Below, piece by piece: positions 1 through 6,453 of a stretch of 10,834 nucleotides of DNA. Made by a program: the position numbers and the translations under genes. This DNA is from Candidatus Desantisiibacteriota bacterium (GTDB lineage: Bacteria; JACRDZ01). The stretch spans positions 1-10,834 of the forward strand of contig JACQWU010000094.1 of assembly GCA_016209155.1 (NCBI GenBank). The letters run 5' to 3'. The notes below the pieces were generated by a model. The model was given only the letters and a program-made list of their open reading frames with translations. It did not search any database and had not been told where the DNA came from. How positions within the stretch are numbered: the first letter of the stretch is position 1; each line of letters starts with the position of its first letter.

Positions 1-304
1 CGTTAGTATCCAATTTTATTGCAAAATTTTCATTTTTTATTTTTTTTAAAAGTATTTCTAAATCTTCATGAATACATGGCTCTCCTCCGGTTATACAAAC
101 ACCGTCTATCCAGTTTTTATGTGAAATCAAATAATTGTATATTTTGTCCCATGAAAGTGTGGGTAATTCATCCGGTGAAATAACAAGCTTATGATTATGG
201 CAATAAATACAACGCAAATTACAGCCCGGAAGAAAAATTACAGATGAGATTTTCCCATCCCAATCAATAAAAGAACTCTCAATAAAGCTTTTAATTTTAT
301 ACAT
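1..304 (-). CDS. NrdG-type anaerobic ribonucleotide reductase activating protein (radical SAM), 3' end cut by window
   Basis: Translating the reverse strand from an ATG at 304 gives 101 residues that run off the window edge. The radical SAM cluster motif CxxxCxxC is visible at C28, C32 and C35 (PGCNLRCIYC), and the SAM-contacting GGEP motif is at 73-76 (ITGGEP). The N-terminus MYKIKSFIESSFIDWDGKIS is typical of the NrdG2 family (TIGR02495 type). These enzymes use a 4Fe-4S cluster and S-adenosylmethionine to install the glycyl radical on the anaerobic class III ribonucleotide reductase in the cytoplasm. A CAGGAT just upstream may be the ribosome binding site. It lies inside a 9-nt tandem repeat, and an earlier ATG at about 312 runs straight into a stop, so 304 is the likely start. 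A truncated relative lies at 6615-6705. Family call is firm; the exact partner reductase is not visible. Confidence 0.88.
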   Translation of the reverse strand, partial: MYKIKSFIESSFIDWDGKISSVIFLPGCNLRCIYCHNHKLVISPDELPTLSWDKIYNYLISHKNWIDGVCITGGEPCIHEDLEILLKKIKNENFAIKLDTN

Positions 305-314
305 TTAACATAAA

Positions 315-545: not shown

Positions 546-828
546 TCATTTTCACCATGAATTGCTGTTTGATATTTAACTGTATTGAAACGTTAGTCAT
601 TATTTTTAACATTTTCATAATTATATACAATTGTCAAGATTTAAAATAATTATTTTTATCAATAACTATTGAGATGATCAACATTGTTGAAAATTATAAT
701 AGCAATATTTAATATTTTAACATTTCGTAAATATTTTACCATTGCGTACAAGTTCCAATATTATACGGAATACGCTTACAATGGTAATATAGACAAAAAA
801 ACGGAATTGAGTCAAATAAAAAATTAAA
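546..828. other. AT-rich non-coding stretch
   Basis: No convincing gene was found on either strand. A short minus-strand reading frame across 717-899 is low-complexity and lacks a ribosome binding site. A GTTAGTC at about 591-597 resembles a recombination core site. It sits where an attI would be expected, between the integrase remnant and the first cassette, but nothing else supports that. Confidence 0.4.
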
Positions 829-857
829 TTGATACATAAAATAAATTGTATTATAAT
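829..857 (+). promoter_or_regulatory. Sigma70-type promoter for the first cassette gene
   Basis: TTGATA at 829-834 and TATAAT at 852-857 are separated by exactly 17 nt. The start of transcription would be near 864, giving a leader of about 125 nt before the start codon at 989. In integrons a cassette promoter (Pc) lies between intI and the first cassette; the position here fits that role, which is inference. Confidence 0.65.
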
Positions 858-988
858 ATTTTTATATAAAATATAAATTGGGACGGTAGTACGCTCCAAT
901 AAATGTAAAAAAATAATATAAATAAAAACTTACTGTGATAACACAGCTCCTCTAAATTATGACGTCGTTGACAAGAAGGAATACTAAT

Positions 989-1870
989 ATGATTGAAAAT
1001 AAGAAAGCAGATCTTCCATCAGATATTCTAAGTCTTTATAGGACTAAAGAACAAATTGCAATATCGTTAATGGATAAAAATGATTTTAGTTTAGCAGAGC
1101 AAGAGTACAAAACGATACTTTCCGAAATATTTAAAGCCCAAGGATCCATAATAAGATATCACAAAGGAGGGGTTTATCATCAAATAGGAATTTGTCTATA
1201 CTATCAGAAAAAACATGAAGAGGCTTTAACCTATTTTAAATATGCATTTATTGAAGACTGCTTGAGTGAAATTGGGTTTGTGGCTACACAATTTCCAGCT
1301 TATAGAGTTTTAAATCAATATTATAAAATTAGTGCTACGCAACTTATAGAGCTTTCAAATAAAATCAAATATGATATTAATACTGATATTCCTTTAAATG
1401 CCGAAAATTATCTCAAGAATTATCTTGATGGCGGAGGCAAACTTGATTCAATATCAGCCCAAAAAAACAATTGTGTTTTTGTTGGCGGTAATTATAAGAA
1501 TATTGCACTTCTTAGATATATTTCAAATAAAGTGAGTGAGTATAATTTTAGTTCAATTATGGCAATTGATTTTGATGTACCTAAAAATGAAGATATTTAT
1601 TCTCATGCTATGGCATTATTGCAGGATTGTGGAAGTGCAATTTTTGAAATAACTTTTGATTCTGGTCATCTAATGGAAATCGAAAGAGCAATAAACACTA
1701 AATTGTTTCCCAGTAAAAATATATTGCTTTTATTTCAAATTAGAAAAAACAATGATGAGCATTTCATTTCAAAAATGTTACTAGGTTTTCCAATAGTTTA
1801 CAAAGGGTATATGAATATAGACGAAATCCCAGGATTGGTTAAAAATTTTCTTGAAAAATTAAATAAATAA
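989..1870 (+). CDS. Two-domain protein: TPR-like N-terminus plus C-terminal TIR-like / nucleoside deoxyribosyltransferase-like domain
   Basis: I chose the ATG at 989 (293 aa) because AGAAGGA lies about 9 nt upstream; an in-frame ATG at 959 has no ribosome binding site. Residues about 15-120 are helical, with a TPR-like repeat (GVYHQIGICLYYQKKHEEAL, then TYFKYAF, about 61-87). After a linker, residues 161-293 form a Rossmann-like domain. It opens with NCVFVGGNY (161-169), which looks like a nucleotide-binding strand-loop. It continues with AIDFDVP (192-198), then CGSAIFEI (214-221) and SGHLMEIERA (225-234), whose glutamates 230 and 232 sit where TIR-like and deoxyribosyltransferase-like enzymes carry a catalytic Glu. 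There is no signal peptide, so it should be cytoplasmic. Such effector domains are often found in NAD-depleting or nucleotide-acting defence proteins, but a defence role here is inference. It stands alone with its own promoter, as a first cassette would. Confidence 0.7.
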   Translation: MIENKKADLPSDILSLYRTKEQIAISLMDKNDFSLAEQEYKTILSEIFKAQGSIIRYHKGGVYHQIGICLYYQKKHEEALTYFKYAFIEDCLSEIGFVATQFPAYRVLNQYYKISATQLIELSNKIKYDINTDIPLNAENYLKNYLDGGGKLDSISAQKNNCVFVGGNYKNIALLRYISNKVSEYNFSSIMAIDFDVPKNEDIYSHAMALLQDCGSAIFEITFDSGHLMEIERAINTKLFPSKNILLLFQIRKNNDEHFISKMLLGFPIVYKGYMNIDEIPGLVKNFLEKLNK

Positions 1871-1881
1871 AATAGATTGAA

Positions 1882-1933
1882 ATTTTGACATCAGCGCTAC
1901 GCTGTACTACAGCCTCTGATGCGTCTGTTGCCA
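1882..1933 (+). repeat. attC-like hairpin after the TPR/TIR-like gene
   Basis: Twelve nucleotides after the stop codon an inverted repeat has outer arms CATCAG (1889-1894) and CTGATG (1916-1921). It encloses an inner palindrome GCTGTA-C-TACAGC (1901-1913), followed by a GTTG at 1927. The layout resembles an attC site, but the end boxes are not canonical (TTTTGAC and GTTGCCA). A second small palindrome with GCAT/ATGC arms follows at 1937-1956. The alternative is a transcription terminator without a clear U-tract. Confidence 0.4.
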
Positions 1934-2006
1934 GTGAGCTTGCATTTATGCGGGCTAAAAAAATATTTTAAAAGCGGAAGATAACCTTAATTCCAGAGGA
2001 GAAACC

Positions 2007-2297
2007 ATGAAAATAACTTACACGATAATTGCTATATTGGCATTATCTTTGATGTTGACTGCATGTAATAAGCAATCAAGTATTGATGCAAGTAATGTGA
2101 ATTCAAGTAATGATAAGGAATGTGTGGAACCTCACAACCCTTATGAAGACGGGAGCGGTCATCACGCTGGATTCGAGTGGGCTAAAGAAAATGGCCGAGA
2201 GAGCGATGGAAATTCAGACTCATTCAATGAAGGTTCCGCGGAATATATCAGGCAATTGAATGAATATAATGAGTGCATGGCCAATAAGCGTAAATAA
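2007..2297 (+). CDS. Small secreted lipoprotein of unknown function
   Basis: 96 aa. The signal peptide MKITYTIIAILALSLMLTAC ends in the lipobox LTAC, so Cys20 should be lipidated and the protein anchored in a membrane. The mature part is acidic and low in hydrophobics. It contains HNPYEDGSGHHAGFEWA followed by NSDSFNEGSAEYIRQL and a second Cys near the end (NECM). The 'GSGHxAGxEWA ... SDSFNEG' layout is one I associate with small uncharacterised proteins, but I cannot name a family. The ribosome binding site AGAGGAG sits 7 nt before the ATG. It follows the first attC-like hairpin, as cassette cargo would. Confidence 0.8.
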   Translation: MKITYTIIAILALSLMLTACNKQSSIDASNVNSSNDKECVEPHNPYEDGSGHHAGFEWAKENGRESDGNSDSFNEGSAEYIRQLNEYNECMANKRK

Positions 2298-2360
2298 TGA
2301 GGATAATTATTTTAATTGTTGATTGAAATTTATAAGGGGTGAGATAAAAAGAAGGTGTCA

Positions 2361-2475
2361 AATCGGATTAAAAAAATACTAATTAAACCAATAAAAATAA
2401 ATATTAATTAAAATCGATAATAAAAATAAATTTAAAATTATAACGAAGCACTGCATCGGATGAGTTTCAGCATAG
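2361..2475 (+). repeat. A-rich linker plus collapsed attC-like site
   Basis: An A-rich tract containing CCAATAAAAATAAATATTAA leads to TTATAAC at 2438-2444, then GCACTGCATCGGATGAGTTT and a degenerate end (CAGCATAG). Compared with the full site at 5951-6037, the two stem arms (CATCGG ... CCGATG) are fused and the terminal loop is missing, so this looks like a deletion derivative. The same linker and TTATAAC arrangement recurs at 4580-4690. Confidence 0.55.
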
Positions 2476-2493
2476 TCTTGGAGGACGAAAGAG

Positions 2494-2676
2494 ATGTACT
2501 TACCAAAGCGATGCCCAAATTGCGGCTATACCAATGACGTTGGTGATTTTATAAAACCTGTGTACGAATGTGTCAGGTGCGGACACCCAATCTGGCCTCG
2601 TCCAAACCCAGTGGGTTTCATCCTGAACCTACTTTTTTTGGCAGCCCTTTTTCTCAGATTCCACGGTAGGGGGTAG
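2494..2676 (+). CDS. Small zinc-ribbon membrane protein, function unknown
   Basis: 60 aa with GGAGGA 9 nt before the ATG. Two CxxC pairs, CPNC (8-11) and CVRC (26-29), form a classic zinc-ribbon knuckle pair. A hydrophobic segment at about 41-55 (VGFILNLLFLAALFLRF) should cross the membrane once, with a short basic tail. The base composition is clearly richer in G+C than the linkers on either side, a sign of separate origin. It is probably in the same cassette as the next gene, 73 nt downstream. No family is recognised beyond the zinc ribbon. Confidence 0.65.
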   Translation: MYLPKRCPNCGYTNDVGDFIKPVYECVRCGHPIWPRPNPVGFILNLLFLAALFLRFHGRG

Positions 2677-2749
2677 TGTCGGCGCCCTTATTGCATGCAT
2701 AGAGATGTGGCATTTCTTCTTCGGACGCTTCAAGCGGAGGTAACTTGCT

Positions 2750-2956
2750 ATGGACCCTGGATATTATAAAGCGTTCATCATCTGCGGTGCGGCTACCCTT
2801 GTCGGAACGATTCTTCGTTATGGACATCGGAGGCTCATCCAGGCAAACTACCCGATTCAAGGTGCAATTGTCGTTTTTGTCCTTGGAGGCTTGGTCGGCA
2901 TGACCGTCTATCCCTTACTCAAGATGCTTGGCGGCCAATGGGCGTTTTGGAAGTAA
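2750..2956 (+). CDS. Small two-helix membrane protein, function unknown
   Basis: 68 aa, preceded by CGGAGG about 10 nt before the ATG. Two hydrophobic segments, about residues 5-22 (YYKAFIICGAATLVGTIL) and 38-60 (QGAIVVFVLGGLVGMTVY and following), are joined by a basic loop (RYGHRRL), suggesting an inner-membrane hairpin. G+C content is higher than the neighbouring linkers, like the zinc-ribbon gene before it. The opposite-strand reading frame at 2654-2860 lacks a ribosome binding site and is a shadow. No family recognised. Confidence 0.6.
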   Translation: MDPGYYKAFIICGAATLVGTILRYGHRRLIQANYPIQGAIVVFVLGGLVGMTVYPLLKMLGGQWAFWK

Positions 2957-3104
2957 TAGACAATCGGAGTCAAGGGACGGGTATTGGGGACAATACTTAA
3001 AATATTAAATTGTTTGATAAAATAGAAATTAAAAACAATAAAATATAAATTTATTATAGAATCTCACCTGTAAACTTGATATACTTATGAATAGGAGATT
3101 ATTC
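2957..3104. other. Cassette junction without a recognisable attC
   Basis: After the membrane protein gene comes a G-rich stretch (AAGGGACGGGTATTGGGGAC at 2973-2992), then an AT-rich linker up to the PIN gene. I see no TTATAAC box or matching stem here. The boundary between two unrelated cargo genes is therefore eroded, or both belong to one unit. Confidence 0.4.
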
Positions 3105-3596
3105 ATGAAATTACTTAAAATATATTTAGATACTTCTGTAATTAATTTTCTTTATGCTGATGATGCACCGGAAAAGAAAGAAATAACAGAAGAATTTTTT
3201 GAACAATTTGTAAAAACAAAAAAATATGATGTGTACATCTCAAACATAGTAATTTCTGAAATAGAAGCTACAAATGATTTAGAAAAACGAAAAAAACTGA
3301 TTCAAGTAATAAAAAAATATTCTATTAAGTTTGTTGATATTCAAGTGTCCGATGAAATTACGTCTTTAGCAGAATTATATATCGAACATGAAGTTATTCC
3401 ACAAACTAAATTAATTGATGCATATCACGTTGCTATTTCAGTTATTAATGAAATGAATATTCTATTAAGCTGGAATTTTAGACATCTGGCTAATATTAAT
3501 CGTGAGACAAAGATTAATGTGGTTAACTTGGCAAATAATTATACACATAATATACGAATTGTTTCACCTTTGGAGGTATTAGATTATGAAAAATGA
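3105..3596 (+). CDS. PIN-domain protein, probable type II toxin (VapC-like ribonuclease)
   Basis: 163 aa from the ATG at 3105, which has AGGAG 8 nt upstream; an in-frame ATG at 3087 lacks one. PIN-domain acidic residues are visible: Asp9 in IYLDTSVINFL, Glu52 in ISEIEAT and Asp105 in KLIDAYHVA. The fourth region reads LLSWNFRHLAN (about 120-130), the form used by a PIN subfamily where Asn stands near the usual Asp. PIN toxins are Mg2+-dependent endoribonucleases acting on tRNA, rRNA or mRNA. The following small gene overlaps its 3' end by 11 nt, the usual toxin-antitoxin layout though with the toxin first. Toxin-antitoxin pairs are common cargo in cassette arrays. Substrate unknown. Confidence 0.82.
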   Translation: MKLLKIYLDTSVINFLYADDAPEKKEITEEFFEQFVKTKKYDVYISNIVISEIEATNDLEKRKKLIQVIKKYSIKFVDIQVSDEITSLAELYIEHEVIPQTKLIDAYHVAISVINEMNILLSWNFRHLANINRETKINVVNLANNYTHNIRIVSPLEVLDYEK

Positions 3597-3786
3597 GAAA
3601 GTATCAAAAGCTCAGTTAGAAGTTTGGGAATGGAAAGATGCATTATATAATGAAGTCAAAAATATGGAAATAGGACAAGCTTTAAAATATTTAATCAAAA
3701 AAAGTGAAAAAACCGTTAAAGCTCTTAGTTTGAAAAATAAACCTCATTATATGAAAAATATTCATTTAAAAGCTAAAGCAAGCTAA
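3586..3786 (+). CDS. Probable antitoxin partner of the PIN protein
   Basis: 66 aa, highly charged and lysine-rich, with no clear DNA-binding fold visible by eye. A GGAGG about 10 nt upstream, inside the PIN gene, supports the ATG at 3586. The 11-nt overlap implies translational coupling. Size, position and charge fit an antitoxin that neutralises the PIN toxin and may autorepress the operon; the antitoxin role is inferred from context. Key segments are KAQLEVWEWKDALYNEV (residues 8-24) and IGQALKYLIKKSEKTV (28-43). Confidence 0.65.
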   Translation: MKNEKVSKAQLEVWEWKDALYNEVKNMEIGQALKYLIKKSEKTVKALSLKNKPHYMKNIHLKAKAS

Positions 3787-3829
3787 AAAGATATAAAAAA
3801 ATTAAAAACAACTTCAAAACAATTAAAAA

Positions 3830-3868
3830 TTTCAACTATGCACTACAGCGGAGTTTGGGCGTCAGTGC
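3830..3868 (+). repeat. attC-like site (collapsed) after the PIN/antitoxin pair
   Basis: An A-rich linker ends in TTTCAAC (3830-3836), followed by GCACTACAGCGGAGTTTGGG and the end box GGCGTCA. The order matches the other sites: AAC box, GCACTGCATCGGA-like left arm, GAGTTT, then GGCGTTR. The right arm and terminal loop are missing. The intron-like sequence starts at 3865, right after GTCA. Confidence 0.6.
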
Positions 3869-4280
3869 GCCAAGCGAAGCTTGGTGCTTCTTATATAGTG
3901 AAAGTCTATATCTGGCAAGGCTTAGCCAGCCGCCAGTATCGAGTGTTGCATTCGTCAGGAAGGGAAGAGTTTTACCCAAACAGATGACGACGACGTTAAC
4001 GCATCGGAAGTCAAAACAAAGGAATCGATTGTAAAGGCGAGATTTCTGAGGGTCTGCCGGAGTCAAAGAGCGTGGCATGTAACAAAAGAAGCATCAGGAA
4101 CTTGGGAGACCCTGCTATCTCCTCAAAAGAGGTAGGATGCAACAACTAACGGAAGAAGCATCCGAAGGATAACAGGGAGTCTTATCATCTAATAGTACTC
4201 AAGAGACGGTAACACCGATTACAGGCTTTTGTACGAAGGACGCAAAAGGGATTCGTTGGGGTGTAGATAGTGTATAGCGT
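3865..4280 (+). mobile_element. Group II intron 5' fragment, copy A (domain I-like, no reverse transcriptase)
   Basis: It begins with GTGCGCC, matching the GUGYG 5' end of bacterial group II introns. It folds into a near-perfect first stem (GCGCCAAGC/GCTTGGTGC), then ATATAG-TGAAAGT-CTATAT, then a segment containing CGAGTGTTGCATTCGTCAGG. This 'GTGAAAGTC ... CGAGTGTTGCAT' order is one I know from group II intron domain I. The later TAATAGTACTC and ACGGTAACACCG resemble intron sequence just before a reverse transcriptase gene. No reverse transcriptase, domain V or domain VI follows; the end near 4280 is approximate. Compared with copy C it lacks about 85-90 nt after position 3962. The short reading frame on the opposite strand here is a by-product of the structured RNA. 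The remainder to 4369 is an A-rich linker. Confidence 0.7.
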
Positions 4281-4369
4281 TTTATCCCCTGCTTTATTAC
4301 ATCGACAAACAAAAAGAAAAGATATAAAATAAAAGCAAATAAAAAAATAAATCTAAAAGAAATTAAAAA

Positions 4370-4428
4370 TTATAACACTCAATACAGTGGACTCCGCTTC
4401 GGTCCGCCGCTGATTTCGGGCATTAGTG
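4370..4428 (+). repeat. attC-like site with complete stem
   Basis: TTATAAC (4370-4376) is the left box. The left arm CAGTGG (4385-4390) pairs with CCGCTG (4407-4412, one G-T pair) around an inner GC-rich loop (ACTCCGCTTCGGTC), then GATTTCGGGCATTA leads to the end box. This is the clearest conventional short attC layout in the window: AAC box, stem, asymmetric spacer, GGC(G/A)TTA. Its end box ATTAGTG departs from the consensus GTTRRRY at the first base. Intron copy B begins at 4426 directly after ATTA. Confidence 0.68.
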
Positions 4429-4492
4429 CGCCAAGCGAAGCTTGGTGCTTCTTATATAGTGAAAGTCTATATCTGGAAAGGCTTAGCCAGCC
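4426..4492 (+). mobile_element. Group II intron 5' fragment, copy B (67 nt only)
   Basis: These 67 nt match copy A 3865-3931 at all positions but one (GGAAAGG for GGCAAGG), then the similarity stops abruptly at an A-tract. It keeps only the first stems of domain I. Such near-identity next to copy A points to a recent duplication or conversion followed by truncation. No gene lies between here and the next attC-like site. Confidence 0.7.
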
Positions 4493-4509
4493 ACAAAAAA
4501 AAATTTTAA

Positions 4510-4537
4510 TAGACAAACTGAATAAATATATTAGAAT
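4510..4537 (+). promoter_or_regulatory. Possible promoter, repeat copy 1 (TAGACA-16-TAGAAT)
   Basis: TAGACA (4510-4515) and TAGAAT (4532-4537) are 16 nt apart, inside a roughly 43-nt repeat (4501-4543) whose second copy is at 5301-5343. Each hexamer differs from consensus by one or two bases. If active it would read through the attC-like site into the lipoprotein gene at 4720. Conservation of both hexamers and the spacing between two otherwise diverged copies supports function, though AT-rich DNA yields chance matches. Confidence 0.45.
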
Positions 4538-4579
4538 AGTTATGTTCCATAGAATTGTCATTATATTAAATAAAATATT

Positions 4580-4690
4580 AAAACCGGATTAAAGAAAAAA
4601 CCAATTAATCCAATAAAAATAAATATTAATTAAAATCAATAAAAAAACAATTAAAAGTTATAACCTTGGCAATGCATTGGAGTTGGTGAA
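4580..4690 (+). repeat. A-rich linker plus attC-like site, related to 2361-2470
   Basis: About 105 nt align with 2361-2470: an A-rich leader with CCGGATTAAA, then CCAATAAAAATAAATATTAA, then TTATAAC (4658-4664). The following part, GGCAATGCATTGGAGTTGGTG, corresponds to the CACTGCATCGGATGAGTTT core but is degenerate and lacks a right arm. The repeat suggests the linker travels with the recombination site. Confidence 0.55.
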
Positions 4691-4719
4691 AAATAATTAA
4701 CTAACGAGGAGGTTGAAAA

Positions 4720-5208
4720 ATGTATACTTCATTAAGGGTCATAAAAACCACGAATGTATTGGTTGTCTGTCTGCTCTTGTTCATGTCGCTGTTTTCCTGT
4801 GGAAGGGAGTCGGAGAAAGAAAAGGATGCCTCGACTTCTATGCGAACTGATGTTCCAATAGTAAAGCCATGGAAAGTTGTTGGAAATCAAGGGGTTGCAG
4901 TATTTGTATATGTGGAATCTGAAAAGTCTCATGATGGTGTTCTCATGGCGCAGATTCTTCAGGTGGTAATCGGACAGAAAAACACAATTACTAAACCAGT
5001 ACAGATAATGTTCTTTGACAAAGAATCGGAGACCCCGGTTGCATTCCCAATGACAGATTCTCAGATGATTCATCAGGTCGCACAGTATAATTATAACCCG
5101 AATAATAGCTTTGAGGAGTTTGTCTGGCTCACGGTTACAGATTCAACTACCTCTCCACCGAATATTGCGACTAAGAAAGACAATATTTCACCTGGAATTG
5201 CTCCCTAA
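4720..5208 (+). CDS. Predicted lipoprotein, function unknown
   Basis: 162 aa. The N-terminal signal sequence (about residues 1-27) has a hydrophobic core VLVVCLLLFMSLFSC ending in the lipobox LFSC, so Cys27 is the likely lipidation site. A charged, flexible segment follows (RESEKEKDASTS), then a beta-rich domain of about 110 residues (VAVFVYVES at about 59-67, VLMAQILQVVIGQ, PVQIMFFDKE). GAGGAGG lies about 8 nt before the ATG. Base composition is more balanced than the surrounding linkers, consistent with separate origin. No family recognised. The opposite-strand frame over the same span is a shadow. Confidence 0.75.
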   Translation: MYTSLRVIKTTNVLVVCLLLFMSLFSCGRESEKEKDASTSMRTDVPIVKPWKVVGNQGVAVFVYVESEKSHDGVLMAQILQVVIGQKNTITKPVQIMFFDKESETPVAFPMTDSQMIHQVAQYNYNPNNSFEEFVWLTVTDSTTSPPNIATKKDNISPGIAP

Positions 5209-5415
5209 TGGAAAAAAGATAGGAAGAAAAATTTGCAGATATTTTTCAAATGTTTAATGTAAAAATTAGCGCAGAGAGTTCAGCATAAATTTTAAAAAAA
5301 TAAATTTAGTAGACAAATCCTATAAATAAATTAGAATAGTTATAATGAAATCCGAAACATAAAAACATTAAAATTTATTAAATTCAATTTTAAATGGTAA
5401 TGGTAAATATTGTAA
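5209..5415. other. Inter-cassette spacer with a possible half attC
   Basis: No gene is visible. AGCGCAGAGAGTTCAGCATAA at about 5268-5288 resembles the right half of the attC-like site at 2459-2473 (GATGAGTTTCAGCATAG). It may mark an eroded junction between the lipoprotein gene and the downstream toxin-antitoxin pair. The right part holds the second copy of the promoter-like repeat. Confidence 0.35.
5310..5337 (+). promoter_or_regulatory. Possible promoter, repeat copy 2 (TAGACA-16-TAGAAT)
   Basis: TAGACA (5310-5315) and TAGAAT (5332-5337) with a 16-nt spacer, same arrangement as at 4510-4537. It lies about 80 nt before the DUF4258-like gene at 5416 and would give that gene pair its own transcript, as expected for a toxin-antitoxin cassette. 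Confidence 0.5.
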
Positions 5416-5658
5416 ATGAAAAAATTTAAATATACTAAATATTTTATCAAAGAAGTTCTTCGTAAAAGACCTTATATTAAAAAGGAATGGTGTCATAAAA
5501 TAATTAAAAATCCAATTAAGGTTGAAAAGCAAGAAGAAAATAGATATAGATTTTGGGGTAAAGTTGAAGAATTTGATAATAAAATTTTTAGAGTAGTAAC
5601 ATTAGAAGATAAAATAACTATACATAACGCATTTCCAGATAGGGGGTTTGAAAAATGA
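5416..5658 (+). CDS. DUF4258-like small protein, probable toxin component
   Basis: 80 aa, strongly basic. It opens with KKFKYTKYFIKEVLRKRPYI and carries RYRFWGKVEEF (43-53), followed by RVVTLEDKITIHNAFPDRGF (59-78). This 'H/Y...RP-I..EW...V....NP....Q..NRYRFWG.V.EF....RVVT' layout is typical of the small DUF4258/BrnT-like family usually encoded just before a DUF2283 gene. The pair behaves like a toxin-antitoxin module in its genomic distribution; the biochemical activity is not established. No obvious ribosome binding site precedes the ATG. It overlaps the next gene by 4 nt (ATGA). Confidence 0.72.
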   Translation: MKKFKYTKYFIKEVLRKRPYIKKEWCHKIIKNPIKVEKQEENRYRFWGKVEEFDNKIFRVVTLEDKITIHNAFPDRGFEK

Positions 5659-5873
5659 AACTAAATTATTATCCTGATACAGATTCATTATATATTGATT
5701 TATCAGAGAAAAAAAGTGTTGATAGTGTTGAGATATCTGATGGAGTTGTTGTTGATTATGATTCTAAAGGGAATATAGTTGGTATTGATATAGATAATGC
5801 AAGTAAAAAACTATCTATTAAAAAATTAGAAATAAATAAACTTCCCAGCATACAGGAAGTATTAGTTGCATGA
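5655..5873 (+). CDS. DUF2283 family protein, probable antitoxin partner
   Basis: 72 aa with the signature DUF2283 layout: NYYPDTDSLYIDLSEKKSVD (4-23), then ISDGVVVDYDSKGNIVGIDI (27-46), then a degenerate tail. AGGGGG lies about 9 nt before the ATG. The ATGA overlap with the upstream gene implies coupled translation. Proteins of this family are about 60-75 aa and commonly partner DUF4258 proteins; the antitoxin role is inferred from that pairing. Confidence 0.82.
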   Translation: MKLNYYPDTDSLYIDLSEKKSVDSVEISDGVVVDYDSKGNIVGIDIDNASKKLSIKKLEINKLPSIQEVLVA

Positions 5874-5950
5874 TAAAAATATTAATAAAAGTTGGGGGTG
5901 CGGAGAGTACATCAACAATAAAATAAATCAATAATAAAAATAATTAAAAA

Positions 5951-6037
5951 TTATAACAGGCACTGCATCGGATCATTTTAAACAAGCAAGCGAAAAGCCG
6001 CTTACTTGTTTAAAACCGATGAGTTTTGGCGTTGGTG
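5951..6037 (+). repeat. Long attC-like site with extended terminal hairpin
   Basis: TTATAAC (5951-5957), then TGCATCGGAT; CATCGG (5966-5971) pairs with CCGATG (6016-6021). Between them is a long hairpin: TTTTAAACAAG (5976-5986) pairs perfectly with CTTGTTTAAAA (6005-6015), and AAGCG (5988-5992) with CGCTT (5999-6003). GAGTTTTGGCGTTG closes the site. Two stems with unpaired bases between, a variable terminal structure and a GTT end box are the structural features recognised by integron integrases in folded attC. It is the best-preserved site and shows what the collapsed ones have lost. Confidence 0.7.
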
Positions 6038-6417
6038 CGCCAAGCGCAGCTTGGTACTTCTTATATAGTGAAAGTCGTATCTGGCAAGGCACAGCCAGCC
6101 ACCAGTATCGAGTGTTGCATCCGTCAGGAAGGATGTTAATCCGAACGAAACGGATGAAGCGTACACAGAGAATGTTGCAGGCTGCATGGAAGACGTGCCT
6201 TCCCAAAGTAATTCAGCTCCGTTAGCGAAAATCAAAGCAGATGACGACGACGTTAACGTATCGGAAGTCAAAACAAAGGAATCGATAAAGGCAATATTCC
6301 TGAGGGTCTGCCGGAGTCAAAGAACGTGGTATGTAGCAAAAGAAGTATCAGGAACATGGGAGACCCTGCTAAATCCTCAAAAGAGGTAGGATGCAACAAC
6401 TAATGGAAGAAGTATCC
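6035..6417 (+). mobile_element. Group II intron 5' fragment, copy C
   Basis: It starts GTGCGCC directly after the attC-like end GTTG. It parallels copy A closely through CGAGTGTTGCATCCGTCAGG, GATGACGACGACGTTAACG, GGGTCTGCCGGAGTCAAAG and GGGAGACCCTGCT, with roughly 90% identity by eye. It keeps the segment (about 6133-6237) that copy A has lost, so it is the fuller version of this part. It stops at GAAGTATCCGA and is joined to higB debris at about 6418. There is no reverse transcriptase and no domain V or VI. Several short reading frames on both strands here are products of the structured sequence. Confidence 0.7.
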
Positions 6418-6453
6418 GATACGAACTGTGTTGAAATTGTTGATTACCATTAA
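6418..6453 (+). pseudogene. 3' remnant of a HigB (RelE-superfamily) toxin gene
   Basis: Eleven codons, DTNCVEIVDYH, then TAA at 6451-6453. HigB toxins typically end in VEIVDYH and are followed within about 15 nt by higA, exactly as here. The rest of the toxin gene is replaced by intron copy C. HigB proteins are ribosome-dependent mRNA endonucleases; this scrap cannot be active. Confidence 0.7.

Follow-up and report, generated by a model that had tools for sequence, protein, structure and literature searches.

The window analysed here is the entire contig JACQWU010000094.1 (10,834 nucleotides; C341 in our numbering), one of the 352 contigs of a Candidatus Desantisiibacteriota metagenome-assembled genome (MAG) of 3.08 Mb that is 78.8% complete and whose phylum is represented by no more than four genomes in the searched collection. 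Positions 930-6430 are an integron gene-cassette array in which, as stated in an earlier note on this DNA, small plus-strand genes are interspersed with related recombination sites (attC); three of these sites run directly into fragments of a group II intron. The note had placed the array at 860-6037, which holds for the array itself and not for its right end, which lies at about 6430. The attC sites, intron fragments and candidate exon-binding sites 1 (EBS1) are as follows:

2438..2478, plus strand: attC site A, with R'' box TTATAAC, minimal hairpin ACT[G]CAT-CGG-ATGAGT, spacer TTCAGC and degenerate R' box ATAGTCT; matched weakly by the attC model (8.0 bits)
3830..3864, plus strand: attC site B, with R'' box TTTCAAC, minimal hairpin ACT[A]C-AGCG-GAGT and spacer TTGGGC; R' box broken after GTCA
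3865..4293 (downstream end approximate), plus strand: group II intron fragment 1, domain I onward; Rfam RF02005, 52.9 bits at 3901-4072
3997..4002, plus strand: putative EBS1 of fragment 1, TAACGC, exact reverse complement of the consensus attC R' core GCGTTA
4370..4425, plus strand: attC site C, with a full stem; R' box broken after ATTA; attC model match at 4370-4428, 25.3 bits, E = 2.9e-4
4426..4494, plus strand: group II intron fragment 2, which comprises just the first 70 nt and shares 93% identity with fragment 1
4658..4687, plus strand: attC site D, with R'' box TTATAAC and minimal hairpin AAT[G]C-ATTG-GAGT; R' side largely deleted; missed by the attC model
5951..6034, plus strand: attC site E, with a full long stem; R' box broken after GTTG; attC model match at 5951-6037, 29.1 bits, E = 3.7e-5
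6035..6430 (downstream end approximate), plus strand: group II intron fragment 3, domain I onward; Rfam RF02005, 116.2 bits at 6071-6326
6254..6259, plus strand: putative EBS1 of fragment 3, TAACGT

Sites A, C, D and E share the motif TATAAC-N4-6-AMTRC, which occurs four times in the window (at 2439, 4371, 4659 and 5952), always on the plus strand, against an expectation of 0.10 and with none of 200 shuffles containing four copies. The fifth site, at 3830-3864 (TTTCAAC...GAGTTTGGGCGTCA), is the unique match to the full layout, a pattern composed after the site was seen and absent from shuffles. An independent covariance model with R''/R' and L''/L' pairs, free of window sequence, was built from 38 clear attC sites in other genomes. 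These came from a set of 80 loci encoding relatives of this genome's integron integrase (IntI), the sites belonging to Omnitrophota, Nitrospirota, Deltaproteobacteria and other groups. Both sites with full paired stems, C and E, are significant matches to this model, which together with the motif and layout of the other three bears out the earlier proposal of five or six related attC sites. In all five described here the L'' arm keeps, three bases in, a single extrahelical base, and sites A, B and D are missed or under-scored because they have almost no variable stem, their loops being of 3-4 bases. Folded as single-stranded DNA, only 5950-6042 is far more stable than shuffled sequence (z = -6.6); by plain energy 4371-4432 is not (z = 0.6). 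A scorer with loose boxes did not separate the sites from shuffles, and an Rfam scan of the window gave no attC family among its matches, the other weak matches lying below their gathering scores. Judged from their sequence, the window sites are ordinary attC sites like those that accompany integrases in Omnitrophota, Nitrospirota and Deltaproteobacteria.

In sites B, C and E the R' box (GTTRRRY) is broken past its fourth base, giving GTCA/, ATTA/ and GTTG/GTGCGCC, where the slash marks the break. The intron fragments at 3865, 4426 and 6035, which the earlier note had overlooked, all begin with GTGCGCC, directly 3' of GGGCGTCA, GGGCATTA and TTGGCGTTG respectively, their boundaries having been set by aligning the fragments with each other and with relatives, and they are 85-93% identical over shared parts. 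The RF02005 matches, which cover domain I-IV sequence, combined with GTGCG at all three starts, identify them as group II introns of the D1D4-6 type, while class IIB itself rests on the reverse transcriptase (RT) considered below. All three lie on the cassette strand, and all are truncated at the 3' end, fragments 1 and 3 extending past domain I but being without RT and domains V and VI. What makes the R' boxes seem deviant is that three of them contain an inserted group II intron, probably of class IIB, at a fixed base and on the sense strand; the lineage-specific attC type with deviant boxes suggested by the earlier note is thereby not upheld. Outside the window the genome contains no RF02005 match, and nothing similar to the intron was found in E. 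coli genomes. The 3' ends of another group II intron, 95-97% identical to one another, occur on C206 (L020; 1-150), C301 (L143; 5885-6031) and C329 (L150; 1820-1923); the copy on C206, which resembles domain V and has no Rfam call, is antisense to the array beside an R''-like box, as are group IIC-attC introns.

In an alignment of eight introns, 45 of the 48 positions in the EBS1 column can pair with each intron's own six upstream bases (G-U allowed), whereas permuting the partners gives a mean of 33.4 and only 12 of 40320 permutations equal the observed value. An intron with another target (TTCTTA) has TAAGAA as its EBS1. The pairing provides good, though not blind, evidence that EBS1 may recognise the target. 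The insertion points, their being the same in three sites, the orientation and the complementarity of EBS1 are read directly from the nucleotides.

The same insertion point is found in other genomes. At the IntI locus of a Deferribacteres MAG (L101), an attC (31.9 bits) is broken as CCGTTA/GCGCGCCAAGCGAAGC by an intron that starts with GCGCGCC, runs in the array direction and is cut off by the contig edge. On plasmid pCadTS8_1 of Catenovulum adriaticum, an attC behind a BrnT/CopG pair, read by eye as CTAAC-AATG-CAAT[T]ATG ... CATATTG-AGGC-GTTA, is broken as GGCGTTA/GTGCGAC by GTGCGACAAGCGAAGC, with the 3' part of an intron bearing a maturase domain upstream; the covariance model left this attC unscored, and RF02005 falls just under its gathering score. 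A plasmid of Candidatus Thiodictyon syntrophicum carries the break GTTA/TAGCGCC in an attC (by eye) that is reversed, placing the intron in the bottom-strand R''. Two related introns (GTGCGCCAAGCAAAGC), in loci L205 and L206 (genomes G049 and G037), each follow an attC R' box or a CGTTATCC remnant at a distance of about 25-30 bases, a spacing that is different but again similar. The exact pattern GCGTTRGTGCGCCAAGCG was also sought in viral contigs, where its four matches, in one phage gene and without intron or attC, were set aside as chance.

We posit, with a probability of about 0.8, that the window is an attC array served by an IntI encoded elsewhere in the genome, and that a mobile group IIB intron targets the attC R' box through EBS1 and has left relics in three sites. 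Under this scheme IntI would recombine the folded attC sites and a leader promoter would drive the first cassettes, while the intron RNA with its RT would reverse-splice into the top strand of attC where GTTR adjoins the remainder of R', guided by pairing of EBS1 (UAACGC/U) with the R' core GCGTTA, so that the intron lands in cassette orientation. Three of the five attC sites carry such insertions, whose 3' parts would have been lost by later deletion to leave relics.

Less likely in our view, but the most probable of the alternatives, is that the intron was inserted once, in one cassette, and that IntI-mediated shuffling or duplication, rather than three retrohoming events, carried it to three junctions. 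This could also yield three copies, it agrees with the identity of the fragments over their shared parts, and the IntI crossover (G/TT) lies directly upstream of the intron, so that the next cassette would begin with TTR plus the intron and take the intron along with it. Against this alternative, the GTTR bases differ in all three sites, as do the end points of the fragments, and the same position is hit in other phyla, which makes the targeting real in any case.

No integrase lies beside the array, which makes it CALIN-like locally, on a contig of no more than 10.8 kb, CALIN standing for a cluster of attC sites lacking an integron integrase. This, with R' boxes reading GTCA, ATTA and GTTG instead of GTTRRRY, could indicate a true CALIN with its own lineage-specific attC type. 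The genome does encode an IntI, on contig C206 (3227-4516), which scores 405.7 bits to TIGR02249 (cut-off 265) and retains the tyrosine-recombinase motifs GLR, GGKG, HTLRH, LLGH and MIYTH intact, and C206 and the window have a leader in common. With the attC model, 13 co-oriented sites were found on C121 and further sites on C314, C139, C199 and C301, so that at least five other contigs carry attC sites, scoring up to 51.7 bits. The window therefore belongs to a larger integron system: the genome holds a large, fragmented one of which the window is a distant part, and is not an integrase-less lineage. The missing integrase of the earlier note is thus correct for the contig and not for the genome, and since the C121 sites have regular R' boxes and the bases following R' in the window are the 5' end of an intron, a true CALIN of this type is very improbable.

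The C206 IntI has an additional N-terminal stretch of about 100 residues, which weakly matches the IntI N-terminal domain (19.8 bits), as if that domain were duplicated. On C158 (L018; 158-589) there is a 144-residue mini-IntI in which N- and C-terminal parts are fused in frame without the core, the open reading frame (ORF) still being open.

The likely parent RT of the window fragments is found on C314, which begins within a group II RT and reads in the array direction into domains V and VI, an A-rich linker of the same type as the window linkers, and then attC sites. This RT scores 410 bits to the group IIB maturase of T. elongatus (6me0), while the best other chain (7uim) reaches 131 and GsI-IIC 119, and thus appears to be of the group IIB type. 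Group IIC-attC introns, the integron-associated type already known, would account for introns at attC sites and cassettes and for the separate antisense 3' end beside an R''-like box on C206, but they are the least probable source of the window fragments given the sense orientation of the latter, the IIB-like RT, the D1D4-6 Rfam family and an insertion past GTTR in R' instead of at the TTGT/T consensus in R'' (PMC7923331).

Several observations weigh against targeting of attC by a IIB intron and have to be set beside the evidence above. None of the window copies is a complete intron; the 3' half of this family presumably sits on C314, which has no join to those copies, and the MAG has a contamination of 2.28%. 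The EBS1 column was picked from one copy after its match was seen, and EBS2 pairing is no better than chance, the perfect-looking matches in two copies being rejected because 4-8 such matches are expected by chance. The three short sites A, B and D are unscored or barely scored by the attC model. Finally, in MAG CSMAG_150 two related fragments lie at GGGTTA/ and GCGTTA/ without a clear attC, so that the target may be the short sequence alone; such cases suggest that this sequence is what matters most.

A more far-reaching idea, which we advance tentatively and at slightly less than even odds, is that there is a group IIB lineage specialised on integrons, with EBS1 fixed as the complement of the R' core and insertion into the sense strand beside the IntI crossover, so that intron or relic would form the front of a mobile cassette. 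If true, insertion would be possible into almost any cassette junction of any bacterium, the R' core being near-universal.

The remaining features of the array are its cassette genes, its leader and promoter-like motifs in its linkers:

693..907, plus strand: putative leader of 215 bp upstream of the first cassette, 82% identical to C206 1613-1835 (minus strand)
829..857, plus strand: strong, near-perfect sigma70-type promoter in the leader, candidate cassette promoter (Pc), TTGATA-17-TATAAT, 11/12, best in the region
989..1870 (ORF listed from 959), plus strand: cassette gene, TPR-like protein
2007..2297, plus strand: cassette gene, small putative lipoprotein (lipobox read from sequence)
2494..2676, plus strand: cassette gene, Zn-ribbon-like small protein
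2750..2956, plus strand: cassette gene, small membrane-type protein of no known family
3087..3596, plus strand: PIN-domain protein, VapC-like toxin candidate (Pfam PF01850, 28.5 bits)
3586..3786, plus strand: small ORF overlapping the PIN gene, antitoxin candidate by position only
4510..4537, plus strand: linker promoter-like motif TAGACA-16-TAGAAT, conserved
4720..5208, plus strand: cassette gene, putative lipoprotein (lipobox read from sequence)
5310..5337, plus strand: linker promoter-like motif TAGACA-16-TAGAAT, conserved
5416..5658, plus strand: toxin-like small ORF; in two further loci with an integrase (L044, L075) its homologue forms a pair with a DUF2283 homologue
5655..5873, plus strand: DUF2283 protein, antitoxin-like partner (Pfam PF10049, 65.6 bits)

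The two toxin-antitoxin-like pairs noticed earlier are recovered as the PIN protein with its small partner and the 5416-5658 ORF with the DUF2283 protein. The stretch shared by C341 and C206 is taken as a leader with a putative Pc, as each copy stops just short of a first gene and the C206 copy, read from the alignment, has TTGACA-17-TATAAT. The linker motif TAGACA-16-TAGAAT, a promoter candidate, occurs in six copies, each pointing along the array, in the linkers of C341, C314 and C199, those outside the window being at L140 2775, 2370 and 1499 and at L142 3149.

On either side of the array lies one copy of a direct repeat of 55 bp, the two copies being 87% identical:

255..309, minus strand: first copy, the 5' end (intact gene start) of an nrdG2-like gene, found by repeat search; NrdG2 match 101 bits
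6656..6710, minus strand: second copy, a truncated nrdG2 start overlapping the stop of a CBS-GGDEF gene

The right nrdG2 copy is cut after about 17 codons, and its overlap with the GGDEF stop codon reads ATGTATGA. The simplest reading of this arrangement suggests that the array may have been inserted at the nrdG2 start in a ggdef-nrdG2 operon. The genes rho and rpmE are present in relatives within the phylum, where synteny past rpmE is not kept and no cassette gene adjoins the rho loci; vertical inheritance with conserved synteny was rejected on the latter ground, the insertion site itself not being comparable. Elsewhere in the genome, the 4.6-kb contig C294 (L017) carries several tandem tyrosine recombinase genes plus RT fragments, and C224 (L152) a CRISPR-like array with the unit GTTTCAGTTGCCTATTATCTTACCGGCTCTAATAC near Cas-like genes and a partial RT.

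A common insertion point across phyla and a matching EBS1 amount to a target rule for sense-strand IIB introns that is directly testable, and suggest a route by which retroelements enter and move with cassettes. Searches for attC miss or mis-score such sites because the R' box is split by the intron.

The array as such is ordinary except for its host. It resembles sedentary chromosomal integrons in its IntI, the extrahelical base on the L'' arm, co-oriented small cassettes, a leader promoter and toxin-antitoxin pairs, and differs from them in being spread over several contigs with the window part apart from IntI, in having three attC sites interrupted by introns and in having three sites nearly without variable stem. 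Gene-less cassettes bearing promoters are already known (PMC11014356, PMC6557892) and share with the window linkers a noncoding stretch with promoter-like sequence facing the next cassette, the latter being recognised by motif conservation alone (six copies). Introns of integrons were previously known as class IIC (PMC7923331). Group IIC-attC introns likewise use attC as an insertion site, but they occupy its bottom strand, opposite to the cassettes, at TTGT/T (PMC7923331), a placement not encountered among the window fragments. PMC7923331 also cites an unusual intron from an integron of Enterobacter cloacae, which shares insertion into the attC top strand in sense; it is of class IIC and a single case. 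One sense-strand IIB case is already known, UHB.I2, a group IIB1/CL1 intron from a soda-lake metagenome with no recognised target rule (PMC7923331), besides which the literature searched yielded no further integron-associated IIB intron. The window introns are like UHB.I2 in their probable IIB class, in cassette orientation and in lying immediately at attC (directly 3' of it in UHB.I2), but that is a single case, whereas here the insertion point within R' is fixed, one array holds three copies and further phyla hold others, and the EBS1 matches the R' core.

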